Positions 41,654 through 62,445 of a stretch of 64,000 nucleotides of DNA are shown here, piece after piece. Source of the stretch: Chryseobacterium sp. T16E-39 (GTDB lineage Bacteria; Bacteroidota; Bacteroidia; Flavobacteriales; Weeksellaceae); the NCBI RefSeq assembly GCF_002216065.1, contig NZ_CP022282.1:3968001-4032000 (forward strand). Reading direction: 5' to 3'. The stretch's first letter is position 1. Every line of letters starts with the position of its first letter. The position numbers were made by a program, and so were the translations under genes. The notes beneath the pieces are model-generated. The model was not told where the DNA came from. It searched no databases and saw only the letters and a list, made by a program, of their open reading frames with translations.

Positions 41654-41950
41654 CTAAGGATTTGGATTTCCGTCAACAAAAGTAGTTCTTGGATCGTTTG
41701 CTCCACACCAGCTAGATGTTTGTGCTGTGTGCTGTTGTGTATTAACATATGTCTGACCATCCATTCCTACGGAAGTAGTCTCAGTAGTCCAGCTCCAGAT
41801 TGTTGTACAGATTTTACGAAGTTGTACATCAATCTCTTTTTGTTCTTTAGTTTTAGAATCTACATTAGTCTTAATGTTTACAACATTTTCTTTTGCGAAC
41901 CCTAAAGTTGTTCCGCCTAATAAGATTGCTCCTAATAATACTTTTTTCAT
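41654..41950 (-). CDS. Small secreted protein of the RiPP island
   Basis: 98 residues. Signal peptide MKKVLLGAILLGGTTLGFA, then a Thr/Ser-rich chain with two Cys (LRKICTTIWSWTTETTSVGM and TAQTSSWCGANDPRTTF) and a Pro/Asn end. No family is recognised. It sits between the AraC regulator and the GLPGLI gene on the same strand. It could be a substrate, an accessory or an immunity factor; nothing in the sequence decides. Confidence 0.6.
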   Translation of the reverse strand: MKKVLLGAILLGGTTLGFAKENVVNIKTNVDSKTKEQKEIDVQLRKICTTIWSWTTETTSVGMDGQTYVNTQQHTAQTSSWCGANDPRTTFVDGNPNP

Positions 41951-42120: not shown

Positions 42121-42164
42121 TTATAAATTCAAGAATCAATAGGTATAGATTCTTGAATTTATAA
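42121..42164. repeat. 17-bp perfect inverted repeat between the regulator and the small secreted protein
   Basis: Arms at 42121-42137 and 42148-42164 are exact complements with a 10-base loop. The right arm contains the 18-mer TAGATTCTTGAATTTATA (42146-42163), which recurs at 44033-44050 and, with one change, at 62428-62445. It lies 26 bases after the regulator's stop codon, so it may also act as a terminator. Confidence 0.8.
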
Positions 42165-42190: not shown

Positions 42191-43906
42191 TTATGCTTTT
42201 TTTATTTCTAGGGCTTCAATTTCTTTTAAATAAATGGAAAGAGTTGTTCCTGTTCTTTTTTTGAAAGCTAATGTGAAAGCCTGCTCGTTATTGTATCCCA
42301 GTTCTTCAGCAATAAATGGTATTTTATAGGATCTGAATTTTCTATCATTTGCTAATCTGCTAATTGCATAATCAATACGAAGATCATTCAAATAGGTTGC
42401 GAAATTTTTTTCTTTATAAATGTTGATAATCTCAGATAGATATCGGGAATTTGTTTTTGCTTTTTTTGCAACACTATTTAAAGTAATTCCTTTTTGAAGA
42501 AATTGCCTTTTTGCCTCAAAAGAATCGAGTTCTCTTAGAATGTTTTGTGCAACATCCTCGGAAGTAGCTCTGATAATTTTAGATTCTGTATTTTCAAAAT
42601 TTACTACTTTAGATGGCGGATCATCTAATTCGTCCTTTGTTATTTGTACTTCAACCTTATTGTATACAGACTGCAATAATTCCTGAGCAATTTTTTTATA
42701 TTTCCTTTCTGATTTATAATATAAGAATAATACTAAAGCAAGTACCAATGTTAGAATACCAATAGAAAAATAGAGAATTATTTTTCTGTTTTCAAGTTCC
42801 GAGATGATTTTAGCTTTTTCATTAACAAGACTTGGTGTATCATATCTTCTGGGAAGCTCTCTTGATACATACCTAAACCGGGAATCAAGCTGCTTATCAA
42901 TATTTAAAAACCGATCAATATAATAAAGTTGCTTTTCTTTATCACCTTTTTCCTTGTAATATCCTATAATATAAGGATACACTTCACGAAGCTCAGGGAA
43001 AGTACTATTGTTCTTTTTTATCAAAGAGTCTATTGCCAAAAAGTTTTGCATAGCTTTTTCTTTTTGTCCCATTCCTGCATATGACTGTCCAAGATAGAAT
43101 GTCGCATAATTTATACTTAATGCATCTGAACCGGATTTAATAAAATATTGCCTGGAACTCATTAAATTATTGACAGCATCTTTGTAATTTTTTACCTTTA
43201 GATTGTACAGTCCGGATAATGATAAATATTGATTATAACGATAAATATTATCCTTTTGAAATGATTTTAGGCCTTCTCCGATAAGTACCTTAGCAGAGTC
43301 TAGCTTTTCAATATCAAGATAAGTACTTGCTAAACTTAAATGAATATCAGAAAGTTCATTTTTACTAAGGTATGGAGCATTATATAAATAAAATCTTAGT
43401 TTTTTTGCAGCTTCATAATGTTTTCCAATATAGTTATTAAGGTATGCAATACTTACTTCTGCAAAAGCAATTTGTCGTTTATTACCTTTTTCCTGAGCAA
43501 ACTTTAAACCTAATACATAGTTATTCAGGGCTTCTTTTTGATGATCGTAGCGGAAATATATATTTCCCCTTAATAAATAGAGACGTGCAGGATAAGTTTC
43601 TTTTTTTGAATTTCTTGTAGATATTTGCACACTATCAAGATATTTTAGCGCATTGGGAAATGATTCATTAAAATGCATGAGAACATAGCCCTCCACAATT
43701 TTTTCACTATTTTTTTCACTTTTGGCTTTTTCAAGATAATAATGACTGATCAAATTTGCATCCTTAATCTTATCAATACTGTTGTATTCATAGTATTTTG
43801 TTTCTAATTCGGAGAATGAGTATTTTTTTAGGGTGTCGGGCTGATTAGTTTGTGCTACTAATACACGAAAAGATAGAAGGAGTAAAAAAATAAGTCTAAT
43901 TTTCAT
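42191..43906 (-). CDS. TPR-containing, membrane-anchored AraC-type regulator
   Basis: 571 residues. Signal sequence MKIRLIFLLLLSFRVLVAQ, about 320 residues of TPR-like helices (LYLLRGNIYFRYDHQKEALN, FYLGQSYAGMGQKEKAMQNF), one membrane helix (IILYFSIGILTLVLALVLFL at about 372-393), and a C-terminal AraC HTH: FLQKGITLNSVAKKAKTNSR, YLNDLRIDYAISRL, PFIAEELGYNNEQAFTLAFK. This layout (periplasmic TPR sensor, TM, cytoplasmic HTH) is common in Flavobacteriia. It is divergent from the RiPP precursor gene, so it is a good candidate regulator of the island. Confidence 0.8.
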   Translation of the reverse strand: MKIRLIFLLLLSFRVLVAQTNQPDTLKKYSFSELETKYYEYNSIDKIKDANLISHYYLEKAKSEKNSEKIVEGYVLMHFNESFPNALKYLDSVQISTRNSKKETYPARLYLLRGNIYFRYDHQKEALNNYVLGLKFAQEKGNKRQIAFAEVSIAYLNNYIGKHYEAAKKLRFYLYNAPYLSKNELSDIHLSLASTYLDIEKLDSAKVLIGEGLKSFQKDNIYRYNQYLSLSGLYNLKVKNYKDAVNNLMSSRQYFIKSGSDALSINYATFYLGQSYAGMGQKEKAMQNFLAIDSLIKKNNSTFPELREVYPYIIGYYKEKGDKEKQLYYIDRFLNIDKQLDSRFRYVSRELPRRYDTPSLVNEKAKIISELENRKIILYFSIGILTLVLALVLFLYYKSERKYKKIAQELLQSVYNKVEVQITKDELDDPPSKVVNFENTESKIIRATSEDVAQNILRELDSFEAKRQFLQKGITLNSVAKKAKTNSRYLSEIINIYKEKNFATYLNDLRIDYAISRLANDRKFRSYKIPFIAEELGYNNEQAFTLAFKKRTGTTLSIYLKEIEALEIKKA

Positions 43907-44032
43907 TATTAATTTTCAAATATGTTGTAAAAATATTATTTTAATTTATCATAAGTCCAATGGTTTCATTTTTTTTTGATTTTCTATAGTAAATGATTGT
44001 CATTTAGATATTTATTGTTGGTATTGTGTTGA

Positions 44033-44050
44033 TAGATTCTTGAATTTATA
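44033..44050. promoter_or_regulatory. Candidate operator in the regulator-RiPP divergent region
   Basis: TAGATTCTTGAATTTATA, identical to 42146-42163, forms an imperfect palindrome with its flanking bases. It lies 72 bases before the precursor ATG and 126 bases before the regulator ATG. The spacer 43907-44122 otherwise holds no recognisable gene. Confidence 0.5.
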
Positions 44051-44122
44051 GAAGTACTCTTTAGTATATTGAAAAAATATTATTTTATTTGCCAACGATT
44101 TTAGTTTAAAATAATTTGAAAA

Positions 44123-44326
44123 ATGAAAAAACGAAAGCAAGTTCAAAGTGAAAAAAAGTTATCTTTGATAAAATTACAGCTTAGTAAAATTAATAACATG
44201 GCTAGTATTCATGGAGGTATACGATTACCAATTCAAGAAGTAATTGGTGATGGTTCTGACGGATGTATATTTCCAGAAGATGCCAGCGCTCCTGTAGACC
44301 ATGGTATTAAACCACCTACACAATAA
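44123..44326 (+). CDS. Class I lanthipeptide-like RiPP precursor
   Basis: 67 residues. The leader contains KKLSLIKLQLSKINN, the pattern K-L-x-L-x-K-x-x-L/I-x-K-I/L-x-N of Bacteroidetes class I lanthipeptide leaders, followed by MASIHGG. The predicted core after Gly32 is about 35 residues with one Cys (C48), Ser45, Ser55 and Thr66. SDGC (45-48) could form a two-residue-spaced lanthionine ring like the TPGC ring of nisin. With one Cys only one ring is possible. Divergent from the regulator and followed 15 bases later by the peptidase gene. Confidence 0.75.
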   Translation: MKKRKQVQSEKKLSLIKLQLSKINNMASIHGGIRLPIQEVIGDGSDGCIFPEDASAPVDHGIKPPTQ

Positions 44327-44341
44327 TTTTGTAGAAACTTT

Positions 44342-46525
44342 ATGAAACACAGAATATTTATTATTACTTCTTTTTTGTCAGTTTTCCTTCATGCGCAGAA
44401 AACAAATCTTGCACCTTCAGTACCAGTAATAGAGGAAAATTTTGGAATTTCAATTACAGACGATTACAGAAATCTCGAAGATGTAAATGATCCTTTAACT
44501 AAGCAATGGATGAAATCTCAAACAGATTATACACATTCTACGCTTAGAAGTATTCCTAATTGGAATAATTATTTAAATCTAAGAACTGAATTGGATAAAA
44601 AACAAGGATATTCTATATCTGATTTAAGAATTACAAGTAATGATAAATATTTTTATTTAAAAAGAAATGCTGGCGAAAAGACAGCAAAAGTATATTATAG
44701 AGAAGGATTTGCGGGTAAAGAAGAACTATTATATGATCCATCTAATTTTGTTTCTGCAGGTGCAAACAAAACTTCGGGCAGTCACGAATTTGTAATCAAT
44801 GTAATAAGTCCGAGTTGGGATGGTAGCAGGTTAGCTATTTCCTTATCTGAAAAGGGAAAAGAAATATCCGAAGTAGTCATTATGGAGGTAAAAACCAAAG
44901 CTGTTCATCCTGAAATTATCACACAACTTAATCCATCTACAATTGGTGGTATTAAATGGTTGGAGGACAACTCTGGCTTTTTGTATGTACACTATCCTGA
45001 TGCAGATGTGAAGTCTCCGTTGTTTGCAAAAAATACCCAAACCGTCATGTATAAAATTGGGGAAGATCCTAATAAACGGAATGTTGTTTTTTCAAACCTT
45101 CATAATCCTGACCTAAACATTACAAAGAATGAATATCCTGCAATACTAACGTATGATCCTAGTGATAAGTATTACATTGGGATATTAGTTGATGCAGAAG
45201 ATTTTAGGAAGACATTTATTATAGATAAAAAAGACTTTCTGTCTGGCAAAAAAAATTGGAAACCTTTATATAATAAGGATAGTAAGGTATTTTTTTTAAG
45301 AGTTGTTGGAAATGAAATTTATTTCTTGTCAGGATTAAATTCTTCCAATTATAAATTATGCAAAACCAATCTCAAAAATCCAGACTTCAAAAATCCAGAG
45401 GTATTAGTTCCTGAAAAGAAAGACGAAGTGATAAAAGGTTATTCGATCACTAAAGATGGAATTTATTACAATACTACTAAAAACGGAGTAGAGGCAAAAT
45501 TGTATGTATTGAAGGGGAATAAAGAAATTTCTATTAAGCTTCCATTTGTTTCTGGAAATATTGATTTGTCATCAAAAGGGAAAGATTTTTCTGATATATG
45601 GGTAAAATGTTCAGGCTGGGCAAATGCAGAACAAAGGTACAGATACATACTTAATACAAACACTTTTACTAAAGAGAATATTGCTCCGGTTCTTGAATAT
45701 CCGGAATTTAAAGATATTATAGTAGAAGAAATAACCGTAAAATCATATGATGGGACCGAAGTTCCTTTATCCATAATTTATAGTAAGAACCTTAAAAGAG
45801 ATGGTTCAGCACCAGTGCTTATGCAGTGTTATGGGGCATTTGGTGAATCTTATTCTCCATTTTTTGCCATTAGCTATCTGTCTTGGGCAAGCCAAGGAGG
45901 AATTGTAGCAGTACCTCATGTACGTGGAGGAGGAGAAAAAGGAGAGCAATGGCATATTGATGGAAAAAAATTAAAGAAGCCGAATTCATGGAAAGATTTA
46001 ATTGCTTGTACAGAATTTTTAATCAATGAAAAATATACTTCAGCTAAAAAAGTTGCTGTATGGGGTACAAGTGCAGGGGGAATATTAGTGGGTAGAGCCA
46101 TTACAGAAAGACCTGATTTATTTGGTGCTGTTATTGCAGAATCGGGAGTTTTAAATCCACTTCGAGTAGAAAAGAGTGGTAATGGAGGAACCAGTATTAA
46201 AGAATATGGTGATCCTAATGATTCAACTGAGTTTAAAGGGGTGCTTGAAATGGACGCTTATCAGCATATTAAAAAGGGTATTAAATATCCATCTATGTTG
46301 CTTTGTGCAGGAATTAATGATCCAAGAGTTGCACCATGGCAATCCGCTAAATTTTCTGCAAAGGCGCTAGCAAGTAGCACATCTGATAATCCAATTTTAT
46401 TAAATATTGACTATGAAGGAGGGCATGGAAGTGATATCACAGTATTGAAAAGATACACAAGTTTAAGCGAGATCTTTGCTTTTGCCTTCTGGCAGTTGGG
46501 GCACCCAAATTATCAGAAAAAATAA
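44342..46525 (+). CDS. Secreted prolyl oligopeptidase (S9) in the RiPP operon
   Basis: 727 residues. A signal peptide (MKHRIFIITSFLSVFLHAQ) precedes the propeller domain and a C-terminal alpha/beta-hydrolase domain with the catalytic triad: Ser in WGTSAGGILVGRA, Asp in AGINDPRVAPW and His in YEGGHGSD. The S9A family cuts short peptides after Pro. In class III lanthipeptides FlaP-type prolyl oligopeptidases remove the leader; here it lies between the precursor and LanB genes, so a maturation or detoxifying protease role is likely. Periplasmic by its signal. Confidence 0.85.
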   Translation: MKHRIFIITSFLSVFLHAQKTNLAPSVPVIEENFGISITDDYRNLEDVNDPLTKQWMKSQTDYTHSTLRSIPNWNNYLNLRTELDKKQGYSISDLRITSNDKYFYLKRNAGEKTAKVYYREGFAGKEELLYDPSNFVSAGANKTSGSHEFVINVISPSWDGSRLAISLSEKGKEISEVVIMEVKTKAVHPEIITQLNPSTIGGIKWLEDNSGFLYVHYPDADVKSPLFAKNTQTVMYKIGEDPNKRNVVFSNLHNPDLNITKNEYPAILTYDPSDKYYIGILVDAEDFRKTFIIDKKDFLSGKKNWKPLYNKDSKVFFLRVVGNEIYFLSGLNSSNYKLCKTNLKNPDFKNPEVLVPEKKDEVIKGYSITKDGIYYNTTKNGVEAKLYVLKGNKEISIKLPFVSGNIDLSSKGKDFSDIWVKCSGWANAEQRYRYILNTNTFTKENIAPVLEYPEFKDIIVEEITVKSYDGTEVPLSIIYSKNLKRDGSAPVLMQCYGAFGESYSPFFAISYLSWASQGGIVAVPHVRGGGEKGEQWHIDGKKLKKPNSWKDLIACTEFLINEKYTSAKKVAVWGTSAGGILVGRAITERPDLFGAVIAESGVLNPLRVEKSGNGGTSIKEYGDPNDSTEFKGVLEMDAYQHIKKGIKYPSMLLCAGINDPRVAPWQSAKFSAKALASSTSDNPILLNIDYEGGHGSDITVLKRYTSLSEIFAFAFWQLGHPNYQKK

Positions 46526-46537
46526 AGCAGAAAGTAA

Positions 46538-48742
46538 ATGCCAAGTTTTCCGTATCAGTTTTTTGAAGAATTCGCAGTTCGGACACCCTTATTTTCATAT
46601 AAAACATTTATGAGTCGTTTGAGTCAGGACGACATTTCAGATAATGAACTCAAGGAGATTTATTCAGATGCTTCTTTTCAAGAAGCAGTCTATCTTGCCT
46701 CACCAGATCTGTATAATGAATTAAGGAAATGGTTTAGTGGGGAAAAAGAATATTCGGATAAGGATCAATACAGATTAAAAAATACGCTTTTAAAATATTT
46801 CAGTCGTATTAGTTCACGATGTACGCCGTTTGGACTGTTCGCTGGAGTAAGTTTAGGAGAATTCAATAAAGATATTTCAATTTTATCTGAAAAAGAAAAT
46901 GTGGAATTCAAAATAGTTCGGAATACTACATTGGATATGCATTTTCTTGTTTTACTATCTCAACATTTTACTGAAGTGCCTGAAATTAGGGAAAAATTGT
47001 TGTTTTTCCCGAATACCTCTATTTATAAGACAAGAAATAAACTAAGGTACATAGAATTTGAAAACCTTAATGGAAGAAGAGAATATGTAACATCAGTTGC
47101 AGCTCTTTCCAATGAACTAGACAAAGTATTGCAATTTTCCAGACAAGGTAAAGCCATTTCTCAAATTGCAGATATTCTGGTTAATGAGGATATAACAAAG
47201 GAAGAAGCAGAAGAGTTTATTAATGAACTTATAGAAAATCAGATATTAATTAGTGAATTAGAGCCTTGTGTATCTGGAGTAGACTTTTTATCTAAACTTA
47301 TTTCTCTGTTAAAAAGTAAGGAAATAACAGAAGCATATACTATTTTGATGACCATCCGGAAAAAGCTTGAAAGATTGGATGAAAATATTTCTAATAACAT
47401 ACAGCTTTACCACGAAATTGAAGATCTTATAAAATCTTTTAAGATAAAATATGAAGGTAAATTTCTTTTCCAAACTGATTTATATTATCAGAATAAAGCA
47501 GAACTTCCAGTACGTTGGAAAAAAGAAATAAAAACAGGAATAAGCTTTTTAAATAAAATAATATCAGCTAATACAGATACCTATATTGATAATTTTAAAA
47601 AAGCATTTCTTGAAAGATTTGAGCATGAAGAAGTTCCATTGCTTTTTGCTTTAGATACGGAAATAGGAATTGGATATCGACAGGATATTCTAGCTAAAGG
47701 TGTACATCCATATCTTGATGATCTGCCTAAACGTAAGTCTAAAGTAAAGCAAGAGCTAACTATAAAACTAACTCCCATACAACTTCTCCTTAATCAAAAG
47801 CTGCAGGAAATACAGCTTGAAAATACGACGATTGTTCAATTAACAAATGAAGATTGTAGCCATTACACAGAAAATTGGGAGGATATCCCAGATACTTTTT
47901 CTATCGTTGCAGAGATTATTTCTGAAAATAATGAAGAAAAAATTGTATTGCAAGGATTTAGGGGTGGCAGTGCTGCTAACTTATTAGCAAGATTTTGTTC
48001 TGAAAAATCTGATATACAGGATGTATTAAAAAAAATTACAGAAAAAGAAGCCGAATTAAATTCTGATTATATTCTGGCAGAAATCATTCATTTACCAGAA
48101 GCCCGAATTGGAAATATAATAAGAAGGCCAACGCTTAGAACTTATGAAATTCCATATTTAGCACAATCTATTCTACCTAAAGAAAATCAAATACCTGTTG
48201 ATGATTTATATATTTCCGTGCGGGAAAATAAAATCATTTTACGGTCTAAAAAATTAAATAAAGAAATACGACCTTATTTAACCAATTCTCATAATTATTC
48301 AGCGAATTCACTACCTGTTTATCATTTTCTGTGTGATTTACATTCACAAAATAGTAGGCCACGATTGCAGTTCGATTGGGGAGACATGAAGTTTTTATAT
48401 AACTTCTTTCCTAGAATAGAGTACCGGAATATTATTTTTTCTAAAGCATGCTGGAAAATTAATGAAAAAGAAATTGAGGAGATAAATAAGATAGCTGACA
48501 ACAAGATAAAATTGTTAGAGCAAGCAAATGAGTGGAGAAGAAAAAGAAAAATTCCTACATGGATACAATGGGTAAGGAATGATAATACCTTAACCTTGAA
48601 TTTAGAGAATTATGAAATGTTAAAATTATTCATTCAAATTGTTACTAAGGAAAAAACAATTTTGATAGAGGAGTTTTTGTACAATGAAAATGATGATTTT
48701 AAACGTGAGTTTATCTTTCCTATGTATAAAATAAACACTTAA
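46538..48742 (+). CDS. Lantibiotic dehydratase, glutamylation (N-terminal) part of a split LanB
   Basis: 734 residues. It carries the Lant_dehydr_N landmarks: RTPLFSYKTFMSRLSQDD, YFSRISSRCTPFGLFAGVSL, RNTTLDMHFLVLLSQHF, and later EIIHLPEARIGNIIRRPTLR and YEIPYLAQS. This part of LanB attaches Glu from Glu-tRNA to core Ser/Thr. The C-terminal elimination domain is absent and encoded separately 2 bases downstream. It begins 12 bases after the peptidase stop, indicating an operon. Confidence 0.88.
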   Translation: MPSFPYQFFEEFAVRTPLFSYKTFMSRLSQDDISDNELKEIYSDASFQEAVYLASPDLYNELRKWFSGEKEYSDKDQYRLKNTLLKYFSRISSRCTPFGLFAGVSLGEFNKDISILSEKENVEFKIVRNTTLDMHFLVLLSQHFTEVPEIREKLLFFPNTSIYKTRNKLRYIEFENLNGRREYVTSVAALSNELDKVLQFSRQGKAISQIADILVNEDITKEEAEEFINELIENQILISELEPCVSGVDFLSKLISLLKSKEITEAYTILMTIRKKLERLDENISNNIQLYHEIEDLIKSFKIKYEGKFLFQTDLYYQNKAELPVRWKKEIKTGISFLNKIISANTDTYIDNFKKAFLERFEHEEVPLLFALDTEIGIGYRQDILAKGVHPYLDDLPKRKSKVKQELTIKLTPIQLLLNQKLQEIQLENTTIVQLTNEDCSHYTENWEDIPDTFSIVAEIISENNEEKIVLQGFRGGSAANLLARFCSEKSDIQDVLKKITEKEAELNSDYILAEIIHLPEARIGNIIRRPTLRTYEIPYLAQSILPKENQIPVDDLYISVRENKIILRSKKLNKEIRPYLTNSHNYSANSLPVYHFLCDLHSQNSRPRLQFDWGDMKFLYNFFPRIEYRNIIFSKACWKINEKEIEEINKIADNKIKLLEQANEWRRKRKIPTWIQWVRNDNTLTLNLENYEMLKLFIQIVTKEKTILIEEFLYNENDDFKREFIFPMYKINT

Positions 48743-48744
48743 GG

Positions 48745-49587
48745 ATGAAAAGAAAATTTACACCTGGGTCAGAATGGATATATCTCAAAATTTACACGGG
48801 GGTCAAGACTGCTGATATTATTTTGGAAGAAGCAGTATTGCCTTTAATTGATTATCTGAAACAAACTCATGGTATTTCTTGCTGGTTTTTCATTCGTTAT
48901 AACGATCCTAAGTCTCATTTAAGAATAAGAATTAAATGTAATACTCAGAATCATAGCGAAATTTTTGCTAAGATTAATAAGGATTTTTATGAATATGTAG
49001 AAAGTGGGGAAATATCCAATATACTATTTGACAGCTATCACAGAGAGATTGAAAGATACGGAGTAAATACCTATCACAATGCTGAGGTATTATTCCATCA
49101 AAACAGTGAATTCGTAGTAGAATGTCTGGATTATGATGATGAAGAAAAAATCATTATTTCCCTATTTTATATTGATGAAATTCTGAATAAATTAAATCTT
49201 CCCATTCAGGAAAAATTGGAATGGATCAAAGGTTTTAATTTTTCTTTTAAAGAAGAATTCAATGCAGATAAAAAACTTAATTCGCAGCTTGATAAAAAGT
49301 ATCGGGAGTTGAAACCAAAGTTTCTTGAATTTCTTAATTCTGAAGAATTTTCAGAAGAGAGAAATGAGGTTATTGCCAATATTGAAGAGAGTAGTGCTGA
49401 ATTTCAAAATATATACAGCTGCCATGAAAACCAGTCTTTGGGAATGCCATTGCAGAATTTTTTCCAAAGCATATTTCATATGAACATCAACAGGCTTTTT
49501 GTTTCTAATCAGAGAGTATTTGAAATGGTGATCTATGATTATCTATTCAGATATTATAAAAGTAGTGTTTATAGCCTTCGTAAATAG
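48745..49587 (+). CDS. Thiopeptide-type bacteriocin biosynthesis protein, elimination part of a split LanB
   Basis: 280 residues. The signature WIYLKIYTGVKTADIIL, then GISCWFFIRYNDPKSHLRIR and the conserved tail SIFHMNINRLFVSNQR with FEMVIYDYLFRYYKS match the SpaB_C/TIGR03891 family, which eliminates glutamate from glutamylated Ser/Thr to give dehydroamino acids. The split between this and the preceding protein recalls the pinensin enzymes of Chitinophaga. No LanC gene follows. Confidence 0.88.
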   Translation: MKRKFTPGSEWIYLKIYTGVKTADIILEEAVLPLIDYLKQTHGISCWFFIRYNDPKSHLRIRIKCNTQNHSEIFAKINKDFYEYVESGEISNILFDSYHREIERYGVNTYHNAEVLFHQNSEFVVECLDYDDEEKIIISLFYIDEILNKLNLPIQEKLEWIKGFNFSFKEEFNADKKLNSQLDKKYRELKPKFLEFLNSEEFSEERNEVIANIEESSAEFQNIYSCHENQSLGMPLQNFFQSIFHMNINRLFVSNQRVFEMVIYDYLFRYYKSSVYSLRK

Positions 49588-50000: not shown

Positions 50001-50528
50001 TTATTTTATTATTTTTAAAGTATTTATTTTTATCAAATTCCTAGCGGCATTTTTGGTATGATAATACTTTACAATTTTCATATCCTTATCTATGCATATT
50101 CTAATGGATAATTCTTTTTTATCGTAGTTCCATTTTTTTATTTCTTTTTGGTCGTTTTGTACAAAATCCACATAGGCAAAACAATATTTTTTAGTTTCAC
50201 ATGATTCTGAATTTAAAAACACTTTATCAAAAATATCCCCATTTCTAAATGTACCAAAACCCAATCCTCTTTCAAAAATAATACTTTTTGCATTTTGTAA
50301 TATTTTCTGCTTGGAGATCTCTTTGGGGTCTTCTAGATTTATTTTAAAATGAAATGGTATAAAGATCATGTCATAATAACTTCCACTATCTATTTCAAAA
50401 TAATAAAAAATACCTAAACCTTTGTAAGAGTTTTCGTTAATACTATTATTATTATTATTATTTGTACATCCAAATGTAAAAATGAGCAAAAGTAAGAAAC
50501 ATAATATTTTAATTTTTTTCTTTAGCAT
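50001..50528 (-). CDS. Small lipoprotein, candidate immunity protein of the RHS toxin
   Basis: 175 residues. MLKKKIKILCFLLLLIFTFG ends in lipobox FTFGC, followed by a six-Asn run encoded by AAT repeats (about 50444-50462). The mature part has no known domain (FYYFEIDSGSYYDMIFIPF, CETKKYCFAYVDFVQND). It starts 13 bases after the RHS stop codon on the same strand, where cognate immunity genes normally lie. Immunity is inferred from position only; periplasmic location would suit protection from a protease toxin. Confidence 0.6.
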   Translation of the reverse strand: MLKKKIKILCFLLLLIFTFGCTNNNNNNSINENSYKGLGIFYYFEIDSGSYYDMIFIPFHFKINLEDPKEISKQKILQNAKSIIFERGLGFGTFRNGDIFDKVFLNSESCETKKYCFAYVDFVQNDQKEIKKWNYDKKELSIRICIDKDMKIVKYYHTKNAARNLIKINTLKIIK

Positions 50529-50541
50529 AAATGTATTTTCA

Positions 50542-53500
50542 TTATTTAATTAAGTTTCCTTTCTTATCTCTTCCAATTTGAATATAGGATGGTGTATCTT
50601 TACCCTTATTTTTATTTGCCCTTTCAAGATAATCCTTATAATAATTGCTATTTAGTTTTTTTCCTTTATCACCCATCAAATCACCAACGAAGCCGGAATG
50701 CGCCTTTGAAATAACATTACCTTTTTTATCAGTAACATCCGTATACCTATCGGGTAAACCGATAAAGTGACCTGTTTCATGCATGATAGTCATATTATCA
50801 CCGTCTGAATAAATAGTTCCTGTATTACCTGTAAAGTGTGTTAAACTGCCATCAAATGAGTCTTCAGATATAACTCCATTGACTTCTGATCTCCCACTCT
50901 TATTAACTAAATTTAAAATATTTTCTCCATCTTTTAAATCATTAGAATTAATATTCTTTTTATAAACATACTTTATATTAAATCCTACTTCCGCTCCATC
51001 AACTTTTTTACTTTTAAATGTACCTTTTGCTAAAGTGTTCAACTCTTTTGCTCGTGCTGCTGATGCATTTGCTCCAGTAATATAAACTGTTGCTCTTACT
51101 TCCATTTTAGATACAGTTCTATCTTTACGGAACATTCCTAAAATTCCAAGTATAAAATCTCGCCCATCAGGATCAACATATTTTACGGGGTTATTAGCTG
51201 TATAAACGTATGGAGACATTTCAGGATACTTCTCAGCTAATGGATCAACTCCATACCAGATACTCAATCTCGGATTATAATATCTCGCTCCATAATAATA
51301 TAATCCAGTGTCTTCATCTAATTCTTTTGCATTGAATTTATATGGATTGTTGTATGAACCATCCATTTGTTCCAACATTGTTTCCCCGAAAGGTAAATTT
51401 ACAAAAAACTGGGTAGCTTGTGAAAATGAATTGGTTACAAATGTAGATGTTCCGAGATGGTCTCCATGCAGGTAATATAATCCAGGATTTTGATTCGTTT
51501 CTCTCAATTCTGTAGAAATATCCTTGCCTAGTCCTGCTTTTTTAAGATAAGCTTTGAAATCTACTTCAGGATCTACTGTTTCCTTTTTATTGCTTTGATC
51601 TGCTATTTTTGTAGTTGTTGGAAGGTTTTCAAAAATAGAGGCATTATCAAGGAGTCGGCTTGCAAATCTTTTTGATCCTTCAAAATAATGTTTTGTATAC
51701 TGCCCGGTAGAGCTTACGGTAACATATGCATTTGGATAAATTTTGTAATCAATAAGTCTTACATCATCCGGATTAATCAATTCGCCATTCTGATAAAGAT
51801 CCGCAGGACGTTCTAATCCATATCTAATGGTTCTTTCCCCTTCATCATCATATACATGGTATTGATATAGTCCCGAGTTATCATTATAAAATGCTTTCAT
51901 ACGGTCTTGTTCATCCCAAAACATTCGTTTTTCTCCAGTAGGATCAATATGTCGGACAGGGTTTCCGTTTAAGTCATATTCAAATTTTTCAACATTTCCG
52001 GAAGCTCCATCCGCAACCTCTGCTACTTGATGAGTTTTTGGAATGTATTCATATTTATTCTCATAAGTATTCTCATGGACAACGTTTTGGTCTCTTTCAT
52101 GGAATTGGTTTTTTGATATGATTCCTCCTGATTCATTATATTTCATTTCCAATTTATAGGATGTAGGAACGTTCATCGTAACTGGGATAGGTTGGTTTTC
52201 TCCATCCGTCAATACTTTTTCGGAACCAGTACCTATCAGTCTGTTAAGGGTATCATATTTGAAACCAAATAAAAACATTCCTCCCATTCCATTAGCTAGC
52301 TGAGAAGCCTCATTCTTAATTGTTGTAATGTTTCCAAAATCATCATACTCGTAGGTATTTCTAAGCATCTGATTATTGGAAGAGTTTCTCAGCCCATAAT
52401 TTCGTAATCTACGGTTGCTATCATTGTAATAATAATCATGAGAAGTTCCATTTCCATTGATAATTGATGTTCGCTGTTCATAATGATCATAGGTTATATT
52501 CTGGATATAAGTTTCACCTCTGTCGTTATTTACTGATTTAAGATTACCACCCAGATCATAGTGATAGGAAACTATTTCATTGTCAGGATATTTAATTTTG
52601 GTCACACGGTTCCAACTGTCATAATTAAAGTAGGTTTTAAAGTACATATTAGGGAAATAATAACCGCGTATAAATCGCTCTTCTGAAATAACTTCTCCCA
52701 TTCTTCCATACGTGTATTTTGTATTACCTGTACCGTCATATTTTGCAATAAGTCTTCCTAGGTTGTTATTACCGGCTCCAATGTATCCATACTGATAAGA
52801 AACATTATTGGGATTAGGGTGTCCATTAGGAAGGTCCGGTAACTTAATGTCAGTAAGCCTGTTGTATTCATATGTATATTGAATAGCGGGTTGTCCTGCA
52901 GCGCTCAGATTATTGGTTAACAACTCAGTAAGATTTCCTGAAGGATCATAACGATACGTTGTAATTCCTTTGTCAGGATGTATTTGTTGTGTCTTCCTTC
53001 CCGCAAGGTTGTAGGAGTATTCAGTTCTCAATCCTTGAGGGTCTTCAGCAACCATGAGTTCACCAATAGTATTATATTTAAATTTGGTGGAAAGTGGTTG
53101 AGTGTAAAGGTAATCGTTTTTCTGAATCATTTTCCCTTCAACATTAGATAAGATTTCTGATTTTTCTGACAAAAACTCGTCAGTCACTTTTAACAAATTA
53201 TTTTCAATACTATACGTTGTCTTTTTAGTGTTGTTGTCTTCATCGGTATCTGCAATTACCCGATCCTGGCTGTCATATAGCTTTGAGGTAGATGCATATC
53301 CCGTAGCAGTATTGAAGTTTTGCATACTTGCAGCTTCATAAGTAGGATGATACTGGCGAATAACTCTTCCCAAATTATCAAATACTTGTTTCCCTGATAC
53401 GGATCTGCTTTCAGCACCTTGTTGTTCAATATCCTTTTTGACCTGTATGATTCTTCCAAGGAAATCAGAATAGGTTTCTGTCATAATTTTATTTCCGGCA

Positions 53501-56500
53501 GCAGCATATTCCGGATCAAAATTGGCCGTTGATGCACGGTATACTTTAACTGTCGCGTCATTGTTTGGAATTCCTGCATGATCGAACCAATAACGGTAGG
53601 CTACTGTTGGGACAGTAGAACCACTTGCGATCTCATTAGGTCCCATAATTGATTTTGTTCTTCCAAATCCATCATAATAAAAGACCATTGCATTTCCTCC
53701 TGTATCTACTTTTCTGGTTACCACATCAAAAAGAGGATTATAAATAGCAGTAGAAGTTAATTGGAAGGTGTCCTTTGTTTTGATGATATATTTTCCCGTT
53801 ACTGTATCATCATATGTATAATCTAATGTATATCGCTCGTTGTTATTATTCGGAGGATAGGTGACTTTAATAATATTTCCTGCAGCATTATACTTTATAT
53901 CAGTAGCGATATACTGTGAACCATCAAAGGTAGAAAAAGTTCCAATATCTCCTGTATTCAAATTGATATTAGAGGCTTTTCTTCTTCTTAACAGCTGACC
54001 TGTAGTAGTTCCTTCAAACACTTCAATAAGGGTAGGGACTCCGATAATATTATTATTAAGTGCCTGGTATTTAATATTAGAATTATAAATAGCAGAAGGA
54101 CTGGTATATTGATATTTTGAAATTTGCCCTTTGGTTGTATAGGTAAATTGTTCAGTAGTTTTTATACTGCCTCCTGGCTCAGAAATTGTTTTTGTCTTTT
54201 TATCTAATAAAGCAATAGCCATTTTCCTTCCTTCTCTACCTCCTGCATCATAATCTAATGATAGATCTGAAGCAAGGTCTATTTTTGTCACATTATCTGT
54301 GAACTTTCGAAGTTTATAGGTGTAGCTTACATCTGAAGATGAGCTTCCACCGCTAACTGTGCTTCGTTTTATAAGACCGTTCAGTAAATAAGTGTTGGTG
54401 AAATAAGTATCTGTAGATGTTCTTACAACTGAACTTCCATCCATCTCTTGTTTTGTCACAGTTCCAAACCCAAAGTCTTCTCTCTCTCTTCTGTCGTACC
54501 TTCTATTGCTAAACGAATATCTGGTTTCCATTTTATTTCCTTGCTCAGTAGTGTAACCGGAAGAATACATATCTGGATTGACAACGTTTATTTTGCTCAC
54601 AACTAATTTAGCATGAGGGTTAGCATAATTAGCCCTTGCGAATTGGTAATCCAGTAAATATTTCCCTTTTGTAAAACTGTTGGTAACGGATTTAAGTTTA
54701 TTGGTTCTGCCAATTAATGAATAATTCACCGTAAAACCTGAGTTGTCATCGATTACAAGATCTGTAAATCCATCACCGTTCATATCTTTAAACGCTTTTC
54801 TCGTTTCAGATACATTGAGCCCTAAATTAGCTGTTGCGCCAAGTCCTGCCTTAATATAAAGGATAAGGACAATGAAAGGGGGAATAAGGGTAATTGGACC
54901 AATATTGAACATATAGTTCCCTCCAAAAGAGAATGAACCATTAAATGATCTGGTTTCATCTGTAAAGTCCACATTTCCTGTGCTTTTTACTAGAGGAACA
55001 GCTGTATCAAATTTACTTCCAAGATTATATCGAACGGTAGTTGAGTTATTAGAATTGTTGATCTCAAGAATATCTATTAAGCCATCCCCATTTACATCTT
55101 CATATACAACATCTCCAGTTCCAATAGAGGCAGAGGCTCCTACGCTTGCACTGATTCCGAAACCAAAACTACTTAAAGCTCCCAGATTAGCAGATGAACC
55201 AAGTCCGCCGCCAATTCCAAGGCTTAAGCTTCCTTTAGGGTGAGAACGATAGGTAATCATATTTTCATATGGAGCTGCGGCCCCTAATCCTTTTCCAAGA
55301 TTTAATGCATATCCCATATTGGCACCAGCGCCACCAACCACTCTATCAGGGAGACCATCCCCATTAATGTCCATCCAGAAATTAATCCCAGAGTCACTAG
55401 AGTCATAATAAGAATTTGCTCCTGCACTTATGGATCCTCCTCCTGACCATGGTAATCCTGAATCTGGTTTGGAAGACGTTCCCAGGTCACCCTGAGCGCC
55501 TAATCTTCCTGCAACAGAAAAAGCATTATAAGAGAATCCTACAGAGTTCATTTTCAGGTGACTTGAATTGCTTGTTGGATAATCATCAACAGACATAAGT
55601 TGGATATCCTCTAAACTTCCTGTAGAGTTTGTAAACTGCATTGATTTAGGATATATGATATCAGGATATCCATCCCCGTTAAGGTCAGAGAACATCTGTG
55701 TTTCCACACTCCCGATTCCTGTAAGATAGGTTTCAGAATTTCCTCCGCTTCCCATATTGAAGCTTAATCCATCAGTCGTATTACGTGAGCTGCTTTTCTG
55801 TATTTTACTAATTGCTTTCATCGTAGTACTTACCGATAATTGCCCAGATGTGTACGTTGTAGGTACTACGGCAGGTGTAGAAGGTACAGGGTTGCTGAAA
55901 TAATCTACAGTTTCATCATTTTGAAATCCTAAATCTGTTGAATATTGATTTGGAGCTATACCTACCCAGTAACTTCTGAAATACATTCCTCTGGTTCTTT
56001 GTATACTTGGCTTCATGGAAGCAATATTCTGAGAAACAGTATTATTTCCGGCATTTGGATCGCTGGTTGCATTTAGAATACACTGAGCTAAAGCAGCATT
56101 ATCATTGGTTATACTATAACATGACTGATATGGGTTTTGCGTTGAAACTGCCGCTGAAAAAGCTGATATTTCAATTGGTCCTCCATAGGCGTAATCACTT
56201 AAGATTCCAGGTTGATACAAAAATTGTCCCCAGTTGTTAAAAAGTGGTGTTTTTGTATTGTACATGGCCGTATTTACTGCTGTTGCAGAAGTATTAGCAT
56301 AAAAGCTTGTAGTATCATAATAAACAGTAAATGGCTTACCCTGGAAATACTCTGAATATTTATTAAATAAAGCATAATCACCTCCAGTTTTACAATATAC
56401 CTCAACGGTTACTAAAAGATTATTTCCTGCAACAGTGGAAATATCTCCATTAAAGATTTCGACTGGTGAAGTACCGGAAATAGTTTGCCCTGAAACCATA

Positions 56501-59500
56501 TCTTCTTCTATGAGGATGCTGTTGGTATGAGATACAACAACTTTCCTTTTACCGAGAACTTCATTCCCTCTTTTGATGATATAATAAAAGGATCCTGTTC
56601 CTAAGCTGGAGAAATTGATGTTATCTTTTTTGATCTGTACGCCAAAAGTATGGTTGCCAAGAATACCTGTCATGGATACATTTCTGATATCCAGTTTTTT
56701 GGTTAATTGAGTAACTGCAAACGAAGGATACTCTACGATAGGTAAAAAGTTAACATTAACATTTTGATTGGTAGTCGTTGATGCATTATAATCAACAGTT
56801 ATCTTATTCGTCCAGTTTGAATTAAGGAAATTAGTGTGAGAATCGGATTCTACGATAAATCTCAAATAAACGGGTTCAGCTGGATTAACGTTAAGTGTTA
56901 ATGAATGGGAAGGTGTAAATGCTGAGGTGTTATGAAGGTATACTTCTGGTGTAATTAAGTTTGTAATTGCACCAGTAACTGCATTTTCAGTTACGATCTT
57001 AAATGTAAAATCATCACTGATATTCCCAAGCATAACACTATCCACATTAATGGTAGCTGTTCCCTGTGCATCCAGATAGATAGGTGCTGACAGATTATTC
57101 AAAAGCATATTGCTGCCATAGCTACCATTATTTAACTGAAACTGATTTTGGGAAAGTTCAACAGTGTTTGGAATGGCATTTCCCATTGAATCAACATAAG
57201 TAATATTCGGATCACATGATACAGCATAATTCTTTACCATATTTTTATGCAGTCTTACATATACTTTATCCCCACTTTTAACAAACAATCTGTTAGGATT
57301 GTCAATACCCCATACATTATTGGATGCGAACTGAGGAACGGTTTGCATTTGGGCATAATAGCTGTTGTATCTTTCTATAGTGATGAATTGATAAGGATCA
57401 CCCGCATGGAGTTCGGTAAGATAAATTCTTCCGTTTTTGTAAATATTGGTGCTTCCATTAGGAGTAGGATCCTGAATCTCCACTGAATAGTACATTTTTT
57501 GTGGTGGAGTTTGAATCACACCATAAGAAGACATTACTATATTATCTGTAAACTTAATATAGCCATCCATAGGAGCTACCCAAACTTTAACAACATCGGT
57601 GATAGAAGTTGGAGGGTATACAGGCTCGATAGGATCTTTAGGTCCCGGATTGATAATTGGAGGTTGTATAGCTTTTGCTTTGACTACCATATTTTCGGTG
57701 TATTCAGAGTGTTTTGTCATTTCTGAAATACCAGTGCTGGGAGTGTATTTGTTAAACCAAACGTCTCCATTATCTACAATGTCTATTAATCCATCAGCAT
57801 TAGCATCTGTAAGATAGATAGGTGTTTTACCTGTACTTGAAGAGCTTGTTTTAGAATGGCTGTAAACGATTGCTCCCATGTCCCAACCTGAATTGGTGGT
57901 GCTGGTTTCTGTATAAGAAAAATCGCCGCCATAATTGGAAATCTTTTTCGAAAGAGAAAACGTAAGGTTGCCCTGAGCGTCTAAGATTCCGGATCTTAAG
58001 AAAAGTCCTTCGCCGGGAACTCTGTAGATCATATCCTGTATTCCGTCACCATTGAAGTCGATAAGCTGTTGCGCATTTCTTGCCTCAGCATTCGAGTATC
58101 CGAATGGAAACCCAAACATCAGGTGTCCGTAGGCATCACTTGAAGGATAATAGAAATTTAATCCGGCAGCAGGTCTGAAATTAAGTCCTTTTTCTGAAGA
58201 AATGTTACCGTTAATTTTGGAAGGACTGACAAGACCTCTTATAAAACCTGAGTACGCTTCTTTGTCATTCTGAAGATTAATATGAGTGTCAGGTCCAAAT
58301 ATTCTTACATTTCCTTGGGCATCTTTAACGTCATTATGATATTCGAAAACGTAGCTGTCACTAATTTCGTTACAGGTGGGTTCGATACCCCCGTTGGTAC
58401 CTCCGCCTCCGCCACTCCCATCATCCATGGGATCGCGTTCACCAGCCTTATTGGCAAGAGTAGTTGAACAAGGATTATTAGGAACTATATATAGTCTTTT
58501 TAAAAGAGTTTTATAAAACTCTCCATCTATATAATCCATTTTATAGGTTCTGATAATCTCCGTTTTATATTTAACCTCGATGTTTTTCAGTAAATAAGGC
58601 TCAACACTTTTGAAGCCTTGTTTTCCATTGATACTGATGTCTTTGCGGGTAATAGTCGTCTCTTTATTGAAATTCACACTGTAATCCTTGTTTTTTCCAT
58701 AAGCGATTTTTTTGATCTGGAAGAATTTTCCACCCGAAACGCTGGCAGGTGCCGATGATACAGATTCGTTGTAATAGGTGAATTCCATCGTGTTTCCGTG
58801 GACATCTTCAATCATTCGAAGACCCCAATGAACAATTCCTCCGGAGCCATAAAGTACAGAATCTGGCGTACCCCCATAATAGCTTTTCGTTCCATTAGTA
58901 GAAGTTACTTTCCAGGAATAATCACTTGGGCTGGTTCCGATTCTTTCGATAAGTGTAAAGTCATGATTTTTTCTAAGATAAAATTGCTTTACACCACCGG
59001 TAGTGTAGTCGGTTCTCAGCTGTCTTTCTGTAGTAATGGCAGTATTGGTCTCACTCACATCGTTATGTCTGTGAGGCATATATCCATTGGGATATACCAG
59101 CATTTCTCCATCCAAAGAATAGAGTTCTGTTTCCCCGCTTCCAAATGAAGGGACCCCCCATTTTGTATCTGCGCTGATAGAGGAGAGGCCGTTGATATTC
59201 CAACCGTCACCCATCCAGCCGTTGCCTCCGCCACTATTATATCCTATAGATAAAGAAGGCTGCAGGCCTCCTAAGCCTGAAGGAACACGAATAGGGTAGT
59301 TCATATTGGCATCTCCCTTTTGTGTTGCGGTTGGGACTTCCATGAGTTGTAGCCCGGAAGTCGGGTCAGCTGCTTTTAGTCCACTGATGCTGGTTGGAGC
59401 AAAGGCCTCCAATTGTGATGATTCAGGGACGGAAATGATCCCGTTGATATAATCTCCATCACCCTTATTTTCAACGGTGATAACCTTTTTCTCGGTGTCG

Positions 59501-60771: not shown

Positions 60772-60792
60772 AGAACGAGAAAATGGTATTAG

Positions 60793-62175
60793 TTAGTCAA
60801 CAATAACTTTAAAAGCCTTTATTATTTTTTTGTTTTCCTTAAGAATGACAAGGTATACACCCTGTACATTAAGTTTGTTTTGATATATCTCGGAATTAGA
60901 GGCAATTTTTTCGGATGAGAGTATTCTTCCACCTCCATCGTATATTAAAATTTCTAAGCCCTCAGTGGGTGGGAATTTAACAGTGAAAAGAGCATTCATT
61001 TTTACCGGGTTGGGATACAGGAGATATTTTAAATCGGAAGTGCCGTCTCCGGGTCCCTTTGTCCGAATAGGAACCTGGTTTCCATTCGGATTTCCGGCAC
61101 CCGGCTGGGATTCTTTGCTTATGTTTGTGGCAAAAGTGAAGAGAGAGCTGTTTTTTTCTTCAGGAAATGAGACATTTGGATACTCTATGAAGTCCTCTTT
61201 GGGTTTACCTTCTATCTTTTGAATTGTACCATCATCATTTTTAATAAGCATCCAATAGTCTAAGGAAAGATCATCAGGGTTCATCAGGTTTTTACCAATC
61301 TGAACGGCATATCCTTTTTTAGGAATCGATTTGCCGACAAAATTAATTTCCCAGTTTCTTTTTAAGACTTTTAAACCTTCTTTATCTTCAAAACTGAGAT
61401 CTTTATTATCATCTGACCAGATAGCAAAGTTGTTATTGTCTAATGCTGAGGTGTTTTCAAAATTGGTTCTTGAAATTCCCTCTCTGCCAATGGTTACAAC
61501 TTTATCCTCCTGATTTGAAGATTGTTTTTGATAGAGCTCATTGGAATCATCCCGACCTATTCCTGTGGGTCTTTTTTTGAATTCTTTGTGTTTTTCAGGG
61601 TCCCAGATCACATCACCGTTGCTGCTAAAATACTTAACGCCTTCCAGTGATATCCCATATTTAATGGAAAGATAAGTGTGGATCCTTTCTAAATCGGTCT
61701 TTTTAATCTTTTTGGGAATAAATAATGATTCATAAAGATTAGTATCCTTCAATCTAACACTTAAAGTATCTTTTGCAGAACTTCTGGCATTTTTAGAACC
61801 GAGATAGGAAAAGATGCTTGGCTTCATCCTAAGCGTTATAGATTTTCCATTTTTTGAGCTTTTATAAGAGTTGCTGTTAAGCTCGGCAATCACATCTTTG
61901 TTGTTCCATATATTTTCTTCATCATTTGAGTTGTGGACAACAATAAGAGTCTGAGAGTCATTCTTATTATATTTTATAGGTTGCGAAATCTGTTCTCTGA
62001 TATTACAGTGAAAATTAAGAAGAGATTCCTTGTCGCATTTGTTAGTATTACGGGACATTTCAGGTTTTGCTTTTTGCCAAGCTTTATTTTCCTGATTGAC
62101 GATTTGGGCTTGTAGCGAAAAGAATCCAGCGAAAAGTATTGATAGACATGTGAAATGTTTACTTTTGGTATTCAT
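60793..62175 (-). CDS. T9SS-sorted partner protein of the RHS toxin
   Basis: 460 residues. Signal peptide MNTKSKHFTCLSILFAGFFS, a middle region with ERIHTYLSIKYGISLEGVKY and PTGIGRDDSNELYQKQSSNQ (the LamG-adjacent module frequent before T9SS toxins in Flavobacteriia), and a C-terminal type A sorting domain (YLLYPNPVKMNALFTVKF, GVYLVILKENKKIIKAFKVI). It lies 21 bases upstream of the RHS gene on the same strand, so it is the first gene of the operon. Its role may be surface display or help in export of the toxin. Confidence 0.75.
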   Translation of the reverse strand: MNTKSKHFTCLSILFAGFFSLQAQIVNQENKAWQKAKPEMSRNTNKCDKESLLNFHCNIREQISQPIKYNKNDSQTLIVVHNSNDEENIWNNKDVIAELNSNSYKSSKNGKSITLRMKPSIFSYLGSKNARSSAKDTLSVRLKDTNLYESLFIPKKIKKTDLERIHTYLSIKYGISLEGVKYFSSNGDVIWDPEKHKEFKKRPTGIGRDDSNELYQKQSSNQEDKVVTIGREGISRTNFENTSALDNNNFAIWSDDNKDLSFEDKEGLKVLKRNWEINFVGKSIPKKGYAVQIGKNLMNPDDLSLDYWMLIKNDDGTIQKIEGKPKEDFIEYPNVSFPEEKNSSLFTFATNISKESQPGAGNPNGNQVPIRTKGPGDGTSDLKYLLYPNPVKMNALFTVKFPPTEGLEILIYDGGGRILSSEKIASNSEIYQNKLNVQGVYLVILKENKKIIKAFKVIVD

Positions 62176-62427
62176 GTCGTGGTAAATTTGATTGTTAGTT
62201 TTTAATTGGCTGTTAAATTAACTAAAATTATGATTTAGTTGATATTTTATTTTGTGTAATTTTGAATTTGTAGTATCCATGGTGTATCTGGTGTTCTTTT
62301 TCATCACTTTTTTGTGACTTTTTAAAGATTTAATCGATTTTTTAAGATATTTTGAAAATCATGGTTATTATTTTTTACTATAATCAAAGATGTCATGATT
62401 TTCGTTGCCTTACAAATAAATACTTTA

Positions 62428-62445
62428 TAGATTCATGAATTTATA
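62428..62445. promoter_or_regulatory. Third copy of the shared near-palindrome, upstream of the toxin operon
   Basis: TAGATTCATGAATTTATA differs by one base from the copies at 42146 and 44033. ATTCATGAAT is a perfect 10-base palindrome inside it. It lies 253 bases upstream of the first toxin-operon gene. The rest of the spacer 62176-62687 holds only a short inverted repeat AACTAAA...TTTAGTT at 62220-62240. Confidence 0.45.

Follow-up and report, generated by a model that had tools for sequence, protein, structure and literature searches.

The window analysed here, a stretch of 64,000 nucleotides from Chryseobacterium sp. T16E-39 (contig NZ_CP022282.1, positions 3,968,001 to 4,032,000), carries an operon for a ribosomally synthesized and post-translationally modified peptide (RiPP) whose LanB dehydratase is split between two genes. 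A precursor, an S9 serine peptidase, a LanB glutamylation half (LanBN) and a LanB elimination half (LanBC) lie head to tail on the plus strand, with intergenic gaps of 15, 12 and 2 bp. A first-pass annotation, made from the sequence alone, had placed these four genes and named their enzymes, including the division of LanB, and both the open reading frames and the Pfam/NCBIfam matches agree with it. Its four-gene composition is incomplete: a divergent gene at 42191–43906, encoding a regulator with a tetratricopeptide repeat (TPR) region, a transmembrane (TM) helix and an AraC-type helix-turn-helix (HTH) domain, was missed. This gene belongs to the module.

42191..43906, minus strand: regulator and putative receptor, 571 aa, Pfam HTH_18 (6e-11); signal-like N-terminus, TPR superhelix at about residues 24–345 (predicted periplasmic), TM helix 373–400, AraC-type HTH_18 480–561
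44123..44326, plus strand: precursor open reading frame, 67 aa, no Pfam/NCBIfam family matched
44123..44218, plus strand: leader within the precursor, 32 aa, KKLSLIKLQLSKI ... GG
44219..44323, plus strand: core within the precursor, 35 aa, with the C-x6-S motif CIFPEDAS
44342..46525, plus strand: S9 serine peptidase, signal-like N-terminus, prolyl-oligopeptidase fold, altered S1 pocket
46538..48742, plus strand: LanBN, Lant_dehydr_N PF04738
48745..49587, plus strand: LanBC, Lant_dehydr_C PF14028 and TIGR03891

The peptidase gene matched Peptidase_S9_N (1.4e-41) and Peptidase_S9 (8.5e-44), the LanBN gene matched PF04738 (6.2e-131), and the LanBC gene matched PF14028 (2.7e-61) and TIGR03891 (4.7e-58). 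The LanB pair thus matches RiPP dehydratases, and the alternative raised at first pass, that it resembles non-RiPP proteins, fails so far. Neither a LanC nor an exporter is encoded in the operon, and the following gene (50001–50528) is on the opposite strand. After the GG, the core contains one Cys, two Ser and one Thr, consistent with the initial description of a single Cys and few Ser/Thr. Seven precursor relatives were found elsewhere at E<1e-14 and an eighth at 5e-6; an alternative, shorter open reading frame of the same gene in the window is not counted. Because the seven carry the same leader and FPEDAS core motif, we conclude that the precursor is a real gene.

Distribution, dehydratase residues and core peptides

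LanBN relatives at E≤1e-40 were detected in 142 of 320 genomes of the family, and a close LanBN copy was present in 92 of 173 genomes of the genus. Named loci found by searching with LanBC came from Chryseobacterium in 27 of 31 cases; among them, those of C. oranimense DSM 19055 (L041) and C. antibioticum RP-3-3 (L040) are similar to the window's locus. We fetched 120 regions around LanBN matches, chosen among the matches listed. A close copy was defined by at least 45% identity to the window's LanBN, a cut set after the gap was seen, because identities among the matches listed jump from 48% to 42%. Fragmentary or interrupted copies (G151, G157, G159) and second copies (G103, G117, G062) were left unfetched, although their genomes count in the 92. 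No LanC was found within 3 kb of any of the 103 full-length LanBN copies fetched at or above the cut; the objection raised at first pass, that other strains might have a LanC at this locus, thus also fails so far. Below the cut, LanC lay within 3 kb of 14 of 19 copies. Of 106 close LanBN rows, 96 have a precursor recovered by a leader profile, and the other 10 gave no match.

A genome-wide search found no LanC match at E≤0.001 in 38 of the 92 genus genomes with the module. The genome of T16E-39 has two LanC genes elsewhere, each with its own LanB system and a Cys-bearing GG-type precursor. Since LanC is near none of the 103 close copies and went undetected in 38 of the 92 genomes with the module, it is generally not needed in trans, and we rejected a trans-acting LanC as a general rule. 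A LanB-LanC cluster at 1.42 Mb in this genome (L001, L005 and L008) encodes a LanC-containing protein of 637 aa, and a precursor with a GG leader lies there on the other strand.

A LanBN tree of 71 rows, built by a quick method and including 35 of the 103 close copies, grouped LanC-less copies from both families into a single 48-row clade (SH-aLRT 88), in which 42 of 48 rows have the regulator. A 14-row LanC clade (SH-aLRT 98) adjoins it. Eight further rows, three with LanC and five without, fall outside both clades, as does the fused LanB outgroup. The composition had been called unusual at first pass; it is indeed unusual and LanC-less, and is recurrent with its own LanBN clade.

Of the 103 close copies, 91 have a regulator homologue no more than 4.5 kb away. 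An order-wide search of 395 genomes added 16 loci. Pooled over these, the close copies and those of lower identity, the regulator accompanied 105 of 121 LanC-less split-LanB copies compared to 1 of 17 LanC-bearing ones. In three of the 105 the regulator is a shared one: in two it belongs to a close copy nearby, and in one (L189) to a module lacking LanB. The 16 loci, all from outside the family, comprised 11 with regulator and no LanC, three with LanC and no regulator, and two with neither. Only four of the 13 own-genome matches to the regulator at E≤1e-5, itself included, span most of its length, so it is not a chance common neighbour. HTH_18 was detected in all 66 aligned homologues and TPR_12 in 46, a central TM helix was predicted in 90 of 90 regulators, and the AlphaFold model has a mean pLDDT (predicted local distance difference test score) of 86.6. 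The TPR part models like the Rap and NprR pheromone receptors. This dedicated membrane TPR-AraC protein is probably the module's receptor.

In 23 loci examined with 10-kb flanks, the common genes were LanBN (23), LanBC (23), the regulator (22) and S9 (20). The next shared families of at least 90 aa occurred in six loci (an open reading frame antisense to S9) and then five. No transporter family was common within 10 kb. A dedicated exporter was therefore rejected, in keeping with the first-pass annotation, and that statement is qualified by C39 proteins some 5–15 kb away in several genomes (seen by eye and uncounted). An immunity gene had also been reported missing, and no immunity-like family of at least 90 aa was common within 10 kb. 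No further modification gene of at least 90 aa was common across the 23 loci, and no YcaO model search was made. One locus (L194, genome G078) keeps the regulator, precursor and S9 gene and has recombinase-type genes, by eye, in the place of LanB; a distant LanB pair (L189) lies on the other side of this module.

Residues with catalytic roles in NisB are retained in the pair. In LanBN, equivalents of R83, R87, D299 and R464 were present in 103 of 103 proteins, T89 in 97, and the RTP arginine in 102 with one gap. In LanBC, equivalents of R784, R786, E823 and R826 were present in 102 of 102, and H961 in 101. Judging by these residues, both half-reactions of dehydration should work.

We compared 94 cores from 95 loci with a precursor, using one precursor where a locus had two. 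The median core is 27 aa with four Ser/Thr; 51 cores have no Cys, 43 have one and none has more. While the operon is a RiPP operon with LanB, the label "lanthipeptide-like" does not hold for the group: because 51 of 94 cores have no Cys, this is not a lanthipeptide system in general, and these cores must do without a Cys-to-dehydroalanine (Dha) ring. C-x6-S occurs in 26 of the 43 Cys-bearing cores, in the window's branch (CIFPEDAS, CNNPDNGS, CANGDDGS). A Ser or Thr at Cys+7 was found in 29 of 43, the highest count among offsets −9 to +11, followed by 15 at −3. Cys before Ser is the less usual ring order. A Cys-to-Dha ring of unusual polarity, spontaneous or LanB-assisted, may form in the Cys branch. 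LanC had no match in 9 of 22 genus genomes with a C-x6-S core.

The protease slot is taken by different peptidase families: S9, S15 and S8. Most close loci have S9, and 26 have instead a 740–758-aa protein, which was S15/PepX in the three scanned. Outside the family, seven slot proteins were scanned, of which four were S8 subtilases (L207, L208, L209, L211) and one was S9 (L210). A hydrophobic N-terminal stretch was present in 70 of 73 S9 proteins and the Ser-Asp-His triad in all 73. The S1-pocket column holds Gln, Ser, Asn, Gly or Thr in the 70 of 73 proteins for which the residue was read, compared to Trp in two PDB enzymes; we take this Trp to be the proline-binding W595 of porcine prolyl oligopeptidase. 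Pro occurs in 63 of 67 cores at S9 loci versus 10 of 23 at S15-type loci. These counts fit proline-specific processing, yet the S1 Trp is replaced, and we do not claim it. Of the earlier "secreted prolyl oligopeptidase", the fold, triad and signal-like start stand; because of the replacement, the enzyme is better called a putative secreted processing peptidase of doubtful proline specificity.

Candidate operator, predicted targets and co-variation

Loci were split at 45% regulator identity to the window's regulator into a "divergent" group (55 loci) and a "co-oriented" group. In 52 of the 55 divergent loci, the best match to a palindrome like TATAAATTCATGAATTTATA was centred 67–99 bp before the precursor start, with a mean of 15.75 of 20 (shuffled, 13.2, standard deviation 0.12). 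ATTTATAAAT is part of the palindrome in 42 of the 55, the window being without it, at a density of 4.1 per kb versus 0.75 in other non-coding DNA of those loci. The palindrome of 30 co-oriented loci, CGAAATTTATAAATTTCG, differs at its ends and was found at 69–95 bp (15.63 of 18; shuffled, 11.08, standard deviation 0.15). These templates were derived from the same data on which they were scored. A template-free scan for 18-mers in which 8 or all 9 pairs match gave hits in 32 of the 55 divergent loci (shuffled, 10.8) and 12 of the 30 co-oriented ones (shuffled, 3.0); of these, 29 of 32 and 12 of 12 lay at 65–99 bp. TTTG is the usual −7 core in this phylum; it ends 40–42 bp past the palindrome in 42 of 55 loci, with a chance expectation of about 1.4% per position. 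The corresponding features of the window are as follows.

44031..44050, no strand: candidate operator GATAGATTCTTGAATTTATA, centre 82 bp 5' of the precursor ATG, 17/20 to the group consensus
44088..44091, plus strand: TTTG of a likely −7 promoter element, ending 41 bp past the operator
42122..42163, no strand: two palindrome copies in tandem, past the regulator gene on its 3' side; 42 bp separate the nearer copy from a TTTG facing 41654–41950
41654..41950, minus strand: predicted target, small protein of 98 aa with a signal-like start; centres of the tandem palindromes 182 and 204 bp 5' of it
62426..62445, no strand: operator pattern matched without mismatch, a minus-strand TTTG lying 41 bp further on; centre 261 bp before gene 60793–62175
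50001..62175, minus strand: predicted target operon of three genes (460-aa, 3409-aa RHS/SpvB/TcdB-mid-like and 175-aa lipoprotein-like proteins)

Allowing up to two mismatches, the pattern occurs at six sites in the 4.87-Mb genome (reversed control, one): the precursor promoter, the tandem pair, the RHS operon at 62 kb, an operon at 2.94 Mb, and one site within a coding gene (two mismatches). TTTG follows at 41–42 bp at four promoters, and not at the site within the coding gene. At 2935703–2941853 (L215), the palindrome heads an operon for an outer-membrane protein, a 96-aa GG peptide, a radical SAM protein and a C39 exporter, adjoining a broken piece that resembles the regulator's HTH. A tandem pair near the module was also found in G017, G058 and G077, and with two mismatches in G085. 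Inspection of G017, G077 and G085 showed genes for small peptides, secreted or of GG type, 3' of the pair, with TTTG at 41–42 bp. Across 173 genomes there were 85 sites in 56 genomes (control, 5), with means of 1.41 per genome with a C-x6-S core, 0.56 in other module genomes and 0.19 elsewhere.

Among the products of the predicted target genes, the 460-aa protein has a tail of the type IX secretion system sorting type, below the Pfam cut-off. The 3409-aa protein has SpvB and TcdB-mid domains and, by eye, an HExxH-like C-terminus; the small lipoprotein-like gene could be its partner. A GLPGLI-family gene and an outer-membrane-like gene follow 41654–41950.

Among the 55 divergent loci, core distances correlated with those of the TPR region (0.79) and S9 (0.81, 53 loci), and less with those of the leader (0.53), LanBN (0.53) and HTH (0.48). 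The partial correlation of core and TPR given leader, LanBN and HTH was 0.61, a value reached by 0 of 1000 permutations; given S9, LanBN and HTH it was 0.39. For the A helices, taken as groove-lining, the partial correlation was 0.40 versus 0.09 for the outer B helices (raw, 0.79 versus 0.71). Along the block, in 52 loci, the correlation drops both ways: HTH 0.47, TPR 0.78–0.79, S9 0.79/0.69, LanBN 0.53–0.58 and LanBC 0.34. Over all 86 loci, the partial correlation was 0.36 (A helices 0.25, B helices −0.08).

A proposed signalling module and rival explanations

The gene set, catalytic residues, LanBN clade, regulator topology, candidate operator and co-variation were computed here, and the links among them at the sequence level are strong. 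The locus is best described as a LanC-less dehydrated-peptide module rather than an incomplete lanthipeptide cluster. We favour, with some reservation, a self-contained, self-sensing signalling module in which a dehydrated peptide is read by a one-component membrane receptor. We infer every biochemical step of this scheme, as well as how the peptide is exported, that it binds the receptor and in which direction control runs. LanBN would use glutamyl-tRNA to glutamylate core Ser/Thr, and LanBC would eliminate glutamate to give Dha or dehydrobutyrine. Because no LanC acts, the peptide would keep its dehydroamino acids; in the Cys branch, which includes the window, the upstream Cys may add to a Dha seven residues further on. 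Cleavage at GG and export would fall to a C39 exporter encoded elsewhere, and the secreted peptidase would trim the product. The mature peptide would then bind in the periplasmic groove formed by the TPR region of the neighbouring receptor. The receptor's AraC domain, in the cytosol, would bind the palindrome 5' of the precursor to turn on the operon, and also a few further secreted-peptide and RHS genes.

Several observations weigh against this proposal. Other TPR proteins match the regulator's TPR part as well as or better than Rap and NprR. Of the 56 site-bearing genomes, 12 have no module. Six of seven inspected sites of one sequence type lie 550–680 bp before a putative asnS (asparaginyl-tRNA synthetase, a label read by eye with no model search), with the same TTTG spacing; four are in module genomes and two in genomes without it (L220, L221, L224, L235, L236, L240). 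Because such sites occur with and without the module, other regulators probably share the palindrome, which argues against strict specificity. In the 31 distant-regulator loci, the partial correlation of core and TPR was 0.12, that of leader and TPR was higher (0.35), and the A and B helices did not differ (0.05, 0.08), so co-evolution was not seen in this group. The distance-matrix tests remove phylogeny incompletely, and the two-sided fall-off, while predicted by ligand handling, would also be given by block exchange.

The last point bears on an improbable but substantive alternative, in which the regulator responds to some other signal, from the envelope or from nutrients, and the co-variation reflects exchange of a linked DNA block. 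In its favour, TPR, core and S9 are contiguous and vary together, and the distant-regulator loci lack a TPR-specific signal. However, the leader sits between TPR and core, yet in the window's group its correlation with TPR (0.59) is weaker than that of the core (0.79), and A helices exceed B helices. The leader argument is limited, as leaders vary little and over 86 loci leader and core are equal (0.57, 0.56). We give about the same low weight to an auto-regulated bacteriocin, a dehydrated peptide sensed by the regulator whose job is to kill competitors. In nisin-type autoinduction, the product is sensed by its own regulation system, and small secreted peptides are among the co-predicted targets here, as is an RHS operon. 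Against this stand the short cores with few Ser/Thr and the lack of a common immunity-like or exporter family near the module.

An antimicrobial class I lanthipeptide, with a single ring closed spontaneously or in trans by one of the two own-genome LanC enzymes, appears still less likely. C-x6-S is kept in most Cys cores, as a ring needs, and LanC is commoner in module genomes (54/92) than in other genomes of the genus (30/81; Fisher p 0.006), which also counts against the signalling proposal. This excess may reflect general RiPP richness. The Cys-less cores, the less usual residue order, the module and C-x6-S genomes with no LanC match, and the pairing of both own-genome LanCs with their own LanB and Cys-bearing precursors all argue against this explanation. 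Finally, that the LanB pair carries out stable glutamylation or another transfer would fit the missing LanC and few Ser/Thr, and is very improbable given the conserved elimination-half residues.

The proposed signalling module, with predicted ligand, receptor, operator and targets, is a defined set of five genes in 92 of 173 sampled genus genomes, which makes the signalling question directly testable. To our knowledge, peptide quorum sensing is poorly known in Bacteroidota. We tentatively extend the proposal: across Flavobacteriales, ribosomal peptides with dehydroamino acids may serve as species-specific pheromones, read by receptors with a periplasmic TPR, one TM helix and an AraC domain that control secreted-peptide, exporter and RHS operons.

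Comparison with known systems

A literature search found no title or abstract describing this module, and print beyond the searched collection may differ. Thiopeptides are LanC-less split-LanB RiPPs. They are mentioned beside split LanB in passages of PMC7268733, and dehydrazoles are described in part of PMC10676384 as split-LanB RiPPs without LanC. Unlike in these classes, no further modification gene is common to the loci studied here, within the size limit and search scope given above. Pinensin-type class I lanthipeptides share the split LanB and differ in having LanC and Cys-bearing cores. According to the passages of PMC7268733 consulted, Bacteroidetes leaders carry an LxLxKx5L motif, often with a GG end, and a C39 protease is often in the cluster. 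Since that survey of class I lanthipeptides searched with the LanC model PF05147, LanC-less loci would fall outside it, and the LanB clade described here is invisible to LanC-based genome mining. The Chm lanthipeptide of Chryseobacterium OV715, whose LanB dehydration was improved by the producer's glutamyl-tRNA synthetase and tRNA-Glu, shares the genus but comes from a LanABC cluster with LanC and has three Cys-derived rings (PMC9993889, in part).

On the regulatory side, TPR-domain genes occur in two of nine Bacteroidales RiPP clusters, with pheromone binding suggested; these clusters are without LanB, and the passages of PMC10352776 describe no receptor architecture or operator. In streptococci, RaS-RiPPs controlled by Rgg/SHP have a TPR-type regulator next to a RiPP operon under cell-density control, and differ in their separate SHP pheromone and radical SAM chemistry (PMC13361665, in part; a word search of that text for Gram-negative, AraC and LanB gave no match). 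RRNPP receptors (Rap, NprR, Rgg) resemble the regulator described here in combining a TPR superhelix with a gene beside that of a peptide. In RRNPP proteins an N-terminal HTH precedes the TPR, and the receptors are cytosolic and sense imported peptides. Here, by contrast, a signal-like start and an N-terminal, predicted periplasmic TPR are followed by a TM helix and a C-terminal AraC HTH. If the proposal is true, the module would be the one-component, membrane-bound counterpart of RRNPP quorum sensing, with a new receptor architecture.

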